The notes below the pieces were generated by a model that was not told the DNA's origin, did no database searches, and saw only the letters and a list, made by a program, of their open reading frames with translations. This document shows, one piece after another, positions 36,447 to 36,733 of a stretch of 36,733 nucleotides of DNA. Positions within the stretch are counted from its first letter, which is position 1, and the number at the start of each line of letters is the position of its first letter. The position numbers and the translations under genes are program-made. This DNA comes from Streptomyces sp. CNQ085. Its GTDB lineage: Bacteria > Actinomycetota > Actinomycetes > Streptomycetales > Streptomycetaceae. The stretch covers positions 1-36,733 of the forward strand of contig NZ_JAJFAU010000030.1 in assembly GCF_022614595.1 (NCBI RefSeq). The letters run 5' to 3'.

Positions 36447-36537
36447 GGAGAGGTGCCCGGAGCGGCTCATCGGGGACCAGAGAGCAATCTCGGTCGGGCC
36501 CACAAAGCCCACGCAGGTTCGAATCCTGCCCTCTCCG
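36447..36537 (+). tRNA. tRNA-Ser-like RNA, copy 1, without an anticodon loop
   Basis: A 91-base class II tRNA fold. The 7-bp acceptor stem GGAGAGG/CCTCTCC is perfect, with G73 as discriminator. T8-G9, a 4-bp D-stem CCCG/CGGG with GG in the loop, a variable arm GGGC/GCCC (36496-36499 with 36507-36510), and a T-arm GCAGG-TTCGAAT-CCTGC complete a serine-type tRNA. CCA is not encoded. The anticodon arm (36475-36495) forms GACC/GGTC, a bulged A36479, then GAGA/TCTC closed by the tetraloop GCAA (36484-36487). No seven-base loop, no U33 and no serine anticodon are available. SerRS recognises the variable arm and acceptor, so charging remains possible. Confidence 0.8.
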
Positions 36538-36569
36538 CGAAAACGGCCACGCACCAACGGCCAACACCA

Positions 36570-36660
36570 GGAGAGGTGCCCGGAGCGGCTCATCGGGGAC
36601 CAGAGAACAATCTCGGTCGGGCCCACAAAGCCCACGCAGGTTCGAATCCTGCCCTCTCCG
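36570..36660 (+). tRNA. tRNA-Ser-like RNA, copy 2, without an anticodon loop
   Basis: Identical to copy 1 in acceptor stem, D-arm, variable arm, T-arm and G73 (36660). The only change is A36607 for G, so the loop capping the helix in the anticodon position is ACAA instead of GCAA. Conservation of both sides of the closed helix (36598-36618) argues that this structure is kept and is not simple decay. Confidence 0.8.
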
Positions 36661-36692
36661 CGAAAACGGCCACGCACCAACGGCCAACACCA

Positions 36693-36733
36693 GGAGAGGT
36701 GCCCGGAGCGGCTCATCGGGGACCAGAGAACAA
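36693..36733 (+). tRNA. tRNA-Ser-like RNA, copy 3, cut by the window end
   Basis: The first 41 bases of a third unit: acceptor 5' strand (36693-36699), D-arm, and the start of the closed arm with the ACAA loop (36730-36733), as in copy 2. The remainder lies outside the window. Confidence 0.78.

Follow-up and report, generated by a model that had tools for sequence, protein, structure and literature searches.

The stretch of DNA analysed here (the window) comprises 36,733 nucleotides of Streptomyces sp. CNQ085, corresponding to bases 1–36733 of scaffold C148 of a draft genome. It carries a putative azoxy-type gene cluster with a VlmA-, VlmB-, VlmO-, VlmR-, VlmH-, VlmL-, VlmJ- and VlmK-like set, as assigned by Pfam fold and gene order, and it ends in an array of tRNA-like units (Table 1). 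A relative of the VlmB-like protein occurs in Kitasatospora setae. A SARP gene (BTAD domain) is located approximately 1 kb beyond the array (L003:1622–2539), and AfsA-like and TetR-type genes were recognised by eye at the left end of the window (820–2779), which suggests butyrolactone-type control above the SARP.

Table 1 Features of the window (R1, covariance model of the element; functions of genes and promoter elements are predictions)
Feature	Coordinates	Strand	Basis and remarks
VlmH-like flavin N-hydroxylase, acyl-CoA dehydrogenase fold, azoxy context	21456..22595	+	Name from gene order and the available text of PMC9379638
VlmO-like membrane protein, azoxy context	24725..25330	+	No Pfam/NCBIfam match; name from gene order
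VlmB-like diiron protein, azoxy context	25881..26873	+	Weak AurF; many relatives named 'VlmB-like protein' by NCBI
Cluster SerRS (VlmL-like), predicted charging enzyme	29565..30842	+	NCBI serS model matched; 38% identical to the genome's other SerRS
VlmA-like aminoacyl-tRNA-dependent transferase, predicted user of the charged RNA	35276..36271	-	PF09924; divergent from the array, ~176 nt away
SARP-type operator, three repeats	19694..19720	+	Ahead of aldehyde dehydrogenase / VlmH-like / aminotransferase / VlmO-R-B-like genes
SARP-type operator, three repeats	34934..34960	-	Ahead of desaturase gene
SARP-type operator ahead of array	36363..36391	+	Three GTCAG in exact 11-bp register (36363, 36374, 36385); form as in the available text of PMC5930380
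Likely -10 hexamer CAATGT, predicted	36400..36405	+	8 nt past third heptamer
tRNA-Ser-like unit 1	36447..36537	+	91 nt to G73; anticodon-arm cap GCAA; R1 102.3 bits; TRF and folding
tRNA-Ser-like unit 2	36570..36660	+	Anticodon-arm cap ACAA; R1 102.8 bits; TRF and folding
tRNA-Ser-like unit 3, first 41 nt	36693..36733	+	Cut by scaffold gap; sequence reading

By reading and folding, each full unit has the overall shape of a class II cloverleaf, with a 7-bp acceptor stem (GGAGAGG/CCTCTCC) followed by G73, a 4-bp D stem (the minimum-energy fold puts three further pairs inside the D loop), an anticodon arm that pairs over 4 + 4 bp, carries a bulged A and is capped by 4 nt, a variable arm of 4 bp with a 7-nt loop, and a 5-bp T arm; the CCA end is absent from the DNA sequence. 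The initial annotation had described these units as a tandem array of tRNA-Ser-like RNAs whose anticodon arm is a closed helix that has a bulged A and is capped by GCAA or ACAA, and both descriptions were confirmed, the former by the class II shape, G73, long variable arm and T arm. It had also counted three consecutive 123-base units; TRF reports a tandem repeat at 36446–36733 with a period of 123 and 99% matches, so the period stands, while two units are complete (differing by the single base that distinguishes their caps) and the third is cut at 41 nt because the window stops at a scaffold gap. Past position 36733 the scaffold continues with 97 N (36734–36830) and then the 3′ half of the last unit (36831–36883); the array therefore contains at least three units, and their exact count is uncertain. 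Long open reading frames run antisense across the array on the minus strand (36364–36733) and are spurious; frames like these are often mis-annotated over tRNAs. The folding energy of single units is within the chance range in single-sequence folding (z -1.2, -1.4 and -2.0), and what lies beyond chance for the element is its conservation, in the form of compensatory changes, and its recurrence beside the same gene.

Known RNA families did not account for the array. ARAGORN returned no tRNA and no tmRNA in the window, and a search of Rfam at its cut-offs gave no match for the array and no RF00005 match in the window. Across the same genome, RF00005 identifies 59 tRNAs, none of which is on contig C148 or equals the array units, and the ordinary serine tRNAs (gct, tga, cga and gga) are kept elsewhere. 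At relaxed thresholds, the highest-scoring Rfam resemblance is to tRNA-Sec (RF01852; 24.5 and 24.2 bits, cut-off 47, E 0.012 for the top match), with a plastid 3′-UTR family on the opposite strand (23.8 bits, cut-off 68, E 0.0093). The tRNA-Sec is itself a serine-charged class II tRNA, but this identity was rejected for the array on account of scores below the family cut-off, and the array also differs in lacking a UCA anticodon and in its 7-bp acceptor stem.

To place the array in a wider context, the VlmA-like gene of the window was used as query and 48 loci were fetched from genome contigs, with four archaeal partial matches set aside. The 44 remaining actinobacterial loci span Streptomyces, Streptantibioticus, Actinacidiphila, Actinomadura and Salinispora, and the element is present within the fetched flank in 35 of them, one of these being cut by a contig edge. 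The initial annotation had suggested searching other azoxy clusters for the element and knew of none described with an array like this; the available literature agrees with the latter, yet many sequenced loci of this kind carry the element. Among the nine loci without it in the flank, one (L032) reaches the contig edge at GGAGAG directly after the promoter, and a whole-genome search for the other eight (G199–G206) found copies elsewhere in every case (8, 1, 8, 9, 15, 4, 5 and 1 copies at ≥76 bits). The genome with 15 copies, S. griseofuscus DSM 40191 (G203; C1 and C2), has no array: its copies are dispersed, with a second replicon holding one and the outer parts of the chromosome the other 14, some of which are mirrored between the two ends, and the promoter region of its vlmA (L059) keeps the TCAG repeats while the element copy is absent. 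Fourteen Streptomyces plasmid records also match the element, 13 of them over ≥80% of its length; a record matches at up to four places, and the feature table, which holds no RNA genes, lists nothing under these matches. One copy (L112, in G200) is decayed, scoring 65.5 bits with a broken T arm, and element copies can thus be lost.

For structural analysis, 65 distinct copies were aligned, each chosen for having GGAGAG, G73, a paired acceptor and a T arm with the loop TTCRA and no fewer than four stem pairs; this rule places no condition on the anticodon arm or the variable arm. Over the 65 copies there is hardly any variation in the acceptor, D and T arms (for the acceptor stem, G73 and part of the T arm, this constancy is partly an effect of the selection rule itself), with four D-stem pairs in all copies and, by eye, one extra base ahead of the conserved A in the D region compared with the genome's tRNA-Ser(UGA). 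The anticodon and variable arms vary yet remain hairpins, with a first-hairpin span of 15–35 nt and a loop of 3–8 nt (4 nt in 34 of 65 copies, 7 nt in one). Changes on both sides were observed for 14 of 28 pairs overall, for all eight anticodon-arm pairs and for three of the four variable-arm pairs, and the covariation score was 0.153 vs 0.090 in shuffles, with all 500 shuffles staying below what was observed on each of the five measures used, in a control from which kinship is not removed. Paired cells amount to 93.9%, falling to 59.8% or less when partners are shifted by one column. Real anticodon arms seem to fold better than versions with the inner part shuffled, the mean z being -1.75 over 60 distinct inner parts (p≤0.05 in 28 and p≤0.01 in 7), a comparison biased toward the real sequence, whose own fold delimits the shuffled part.

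These patterns bear on whether the units could be relics of a tRNA-Ser gene, either pseudogenes or debris of an integration site, that recombination has multiplied, a reading with which the tandem repeats, the plasmid copies and some decayed copies would agree. Random stem-breaking substitutions, named in the initial annotation as the sign of pseudogenes, were looked for, and the stems proved to be preserved by compensatory changes, with decayed copies being rare. The promoter is also conserved, and the same partner gene recurs in several genera; a pseudogene or att-site identity was rejected on the compensatory changes and promoter conservation, and we regard it as highly improbable.

The claim that no serine anticodon can be placed in the units extends to the family: in a placement-free test, a serine anticodon in a 7-nt U33 loop on a 4–5 bp stem was found in 0 of 65 elements vs 7 of 7 real tRNA-Ser. 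A formal 7-nt U33 loop occurs somewhere in eight of the 65 copies, presenting other triplets, none of which is a serine anticodon. As the positive controls of this test pass, the possibility that the units are ordinary tRNA genes overlooked by ARAGORN was rejected. The element nevertheless presents canonical tRNA-Ser traits, namely G73, a paired 7-bp acceptor, a long variable arm and a T arm, although acceptor pairing and G73 were also among the selection criteria for the 65 copies. G73 and the long variable arm are common to the element and the genome's serine tRNAs, three of four of which also share the GGAG acceptor start. G18-G19 and the T arm are retained, and the T stem keeps A51-U63, which is also present in ordinary tRNA-Ser(GCU); no specific EF-Tu escape is therefore visible from the T stem.

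Upstream of the array, the putative -10 hexamer was placed by a spacing rule of 8 nt from the last heptamer, which we take to apply here; a generic sigma-70 scan of the window gave no promoter at this position (36400..36405), and a terminator scan of the window likewise gave nothing. In the available text of PMC5930380, SARP operators consist of three heptamers with 4-bp spacers, and VlmI of valanimycin is a SARP according to a title in the reference list of PMC4052509. In addition to the three-repeat operators of Table 1, two-repeat boxes occur in the window ahead of the ACP/PKS genes, a P450 gene and the VlmJ-like gene, giving nine register matches at six sites vs 0.3 in mononucleotide shuffles. 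Among 82 distinct regions upstream of the element, three TCAG in 11-bp register were found in 66, two in 12, one in three and none in one; at least two in register thus occur in 78 of 82 regions vs 122 of 20000 windows drawn at random from the same loci. The element hence appears to have a SARP-regulated promoter, as judged from the 11-bp direct repeats upstream, and since this box is shared by the element and the biosynthetic operons, the RNA is predicted to be made together with the enzymes.

The dispersed single copies that were looked at lie away from azoxy genes, beside neighbours that are mutually unrelated (Pfam, ten proteins at four loci), and most of them have the same promoter box as the array. 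One such copy, in G033 (L072, 8982–10857), has two genes encoding GmrSD C-terminal domains nearby. Folds of the tRNA type serve as processing substrates, and the short, regular spacers of the array would suit units acting as processing signals, at which cleavage by RNase P and RNase Z would release the transcripts on either side. Solitary copies with a promoter of their own and no common neighbour do not fit such a role, which we consider extremely unlikely.

The distribution of the element was assessed with R1 in a genus sample of 392 genomes, where strict filters and a ceiling of ten scored places per genome make copy numbers lower bounds (at least the number given). The element was identified in 51 genomes, with a lowest match of 69.8 bits. 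The R1 matches that were read as canonical tRNA-Ser or tRNA-Tyr reach at most 57.6 bits, two matches in G199 (56.7 and 51.0) and one in G200 (49.5) lying outside this reading, and the gap between 57.6 and 69.8 bits contains the decayed L112 and one further match (L244, 67.7); chance matches of the covariance model were rejected on this separation. VlmA was found at E≤1e-30 in 80 of the 392 genomes, 49 of which also have the element (Fisher 1.8e-38, uncorrected for kinship), and the remaining two element genomes (G258 and G390) encode a VlmA-like protein of 37–38% identity approximately 2.2 kb from the element, so that a VlmA-like transferase gene is present in all 51 element genomes (49 by the cut-off and two more distant). 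In 42 of the 51 genomes the element and vlmA lie no more than 35 kb apart on a single contig, in 24 they are at most 500 bases apart, and in nine they are on different contigs.

A deeper search of the 31 vlmA genomes without the element recovered none, with 16 matches at 48.5–53.3 bits, of which the four that were read are tRNA-Ser (three) and tRNA-Tyr (one). Nor was an alternative tRNA-like element found near vlmA in element-free genomes (L122–L153), beyond an ordinary tRNA-Lys (L137) and an ARAGORN tRNA-Val (L144). In a class sample of 394 genomes, which overlaps the genus sample, the element was present at ≥73 bits in five genomes, all with vlmA, and vlmA occurred alone in four more; four weaker R1 matches are ordinary tRNA-Ser. 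In a family sample, the element was detected in 10 of 101 genomes from eight genera, and a VlmA gene was inside the fetched 1.5 kb at three of nine loci examined.

On a VlmA tree of 88 sequences, a few of them identical or from the same strain, the presence of the element changes three times vs a shuffled mean of 26.3. One clade of 57 contains 54 members with the element and three without (G073, G086 and G427), and all rows outside this clade lack it except the distant G258/G390 pair. Rfam gave nothing relevant on the three exceptions. As the element is missing from them, VlmA can presumably use ordinary Ser-tRNA there. The element is thus tied to a Fem/LPG-type aminoacyl transferase, as in a non-proteinogenic carrier tRNA of the S. 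aureus tRNA-Gly kind. Alternatively, the RNA could be regulatory, imitating a tRNA and binding SerRS, the transferase or some other partner so that serine charging is sensed or expression adjusted; this would also be compatible with the SARP-type box and, in the window, with a position about 1 kb ahead of the SARP gene. Such a role is quite unlikely given that presence tracks a clade of aminoacyl transferases and that the charging end (acceptor stem, G73, T arm and long variable arm) is near-fixed, and a decoy needs no growth in copy number, whereas copies of the element are numerous and scattered (up to 15).

A second association concerns the charging enzyme. A SerRS at least 57% identical to that of the window (VlmL-type) was found in 29 of 51 element genomes vs one of 29 vlmA genomes without the element, the search having covered 29 of the 31 such genomes; the sole case among the latter (G243:C36:76402–77667, 57%) is on a contig other than that of its vlmA. 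The VlmL-type SerRS is absent from 22 of the 51 element genomes, and this private SerRS accompanies the element but is dispensable, suggesting that the housekeeping SerRS can charge the element. It is quite unlikely, though a shade less so than for the pseudogene and processing readings, that the units carry another amino acid or still decode through an unusual loop. ARAGORN does name various amino acids on family members, but where it makes calls these are mutually contradictory (Thr, Ala, His, Trp, Lys, Asp, Arg, Leu, Pro or no amino acid, and never Ser) and the predicted loops range from 3 to 8 nt, whereas the shared G73 and long variable arm, together with the recurrent VlmL-type SerRS, point to serine.

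The G258 and G390 loci (L154, 7561–13624, and L155, 8437–13466) comprise a SARP, a class III aminotransferase, a GDSL-type protein, a VlmJ-like kinase (43–45% identity in the VlmJ comparison for these two loci), the distant VlmA-like protein and the element. A search of approximately 9 kb on either side (19 kb) gave no homologues of VlmH, B, O or R, and these loci possibly represent a second, non-azoxy pathway using the same RNA. VlmJ phosphorylates a serine moiety in valanimycin, according to the available text of PMC9379638, and with a VlmJ-like kinase beside the element a serine cargo would fit there too.

SerRS recognises the variable arm, the acceptor and G73 of its tRNAs. The elements seem to have kept the parts read by SerRS and lost the part read by the ribosome, and we infer that they are most simply read as serine donors. 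In the window, the predicted RNAs of the array are probably dedicated seryl carriers for the adjacent VlmA-like transferase instead of the ribosome. In the proposed mechanism, the SARP encoded about 1 kb past the array would switch on the RNA and the enzymes together, the array transcript would be cleaved into single RNAs, each given a CCA end, and SerRS (the cluster's own if present, otherwise the housekeeping enzyme) would read the variable arm, acceptor stem and G73 and load serine. Having no anticodon loop, the seryl-RNA could not be chosen by the ribosome and would thereby escape ribosomal selection; VlmA would transfer its serine to the alkylhydroxylamine of the pathway, a step known for valanimycin, and tandem or dispersed copies would increase the RNA dose. 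The original proposal of seryl carriers spared from the ribosome is supported by the stem-preserving family, the lack of a serine anticodon in all 65 elements, the near-exclusive co-occurrence with VlmA-like transferases, the frequent extra SerRS and the SARP-type promoter, while expression, serylation and transfer are predictions.

The function has a precedent, while as an RNA family the element is without a described relative in the literature as far as available. To our knowledge, the S. aureus tRNA-Gly isoacceptors with Fem enzymes are the one precedent for the concept of a carrier tRNA. As presented in the available text of PMC4052509, these non-proteinogenic isoacceptors are likewise withheld from translation and feed a Fem-type aminoacyl transferase, but are thought to escape by weak EF-Tu binding and altered G18-G19, whereas the element keeps G18-G19 and the T arm, has lost the anticodon loop, is serine-type, belongs to a secondary-metabolite pathway, has a SARP box and occurs in tandem or dispersed copies. 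The pseudo-tRNA tRNA-Other of Bacillus cereus (PMC3399842, available text) is also a tRNA-like RNA outside translation, but differs in its retained Trp anticodon, its location next to a genomic island, its poor charging and its place within a longer regulatory RNA.

The closest enzymatic parallel is the valanimycin pathway, in which VlmA, similar to FemABX (PMC12945691), transfers serine from seryl-tRNA to isobutylhydroxylamine (PMC4052509, PMC12945691, PMC11705231), all as given in the portions of these papers available. The window resembles it in its enzyme set, by fold and gene order, and in the use of serine as seryl-tRNA, but a dedicated tRNA is not mentioned for valanimycin in the available text of PMC4052509, PMC11705231 and PMC9379638. 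How Ser-tRNA is diverted from translation is stated to be unknown in PMC4052509, and for azodyrecin the cellular tRNA pool was suggested as the source of alanyl-tRNA (PMC9379638), again in the text available. The S. rochei KA57-A cluster is drawn as ending at SRO_1850 in the accessible part of PMC6662830, a gene listed beside VlmA in that of PMC9379638, and a hypothetical array behind SRO_1850 would fall outside the drawn boundary. In the accessible text of the literature, no tRNA that lacks an anticodon or is encoded in a biosynthetic cluster was found to be described for natural product synthesis; that ARAGORN overlooks or misnames the element may explain why it has gone unseen so far.

Judged from comparative sequence evidence, the elements probably constitute a new class of RNA, namely anticodon-less tRNAs that would serve solely as metabolic aminoacyl carriers, induced by the pathway SARP, standing in tandem or spread across chromosome arms and plasmids, and often accompanied by their own SerRS and a dedicated transferase. 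They would give actinobacteria a channel for serine activation, physically apart from protein synthesis, that may reach beyond azoxy compounds, as at L154 and L155. The element together with its SARP box would offer a handle for locating azoxy and related clusters, and, if the interpretation is true, the orthogonal tRNA/SerRS pair would be of practical use. The element would then be an unusually clean case of a tRNA without decoding but with charging, and would provide a concrete and testable answer to the question of how a cell reserves charged tRNA for producing antibiotics, namely by means of a separate, non-decoding tRNA.
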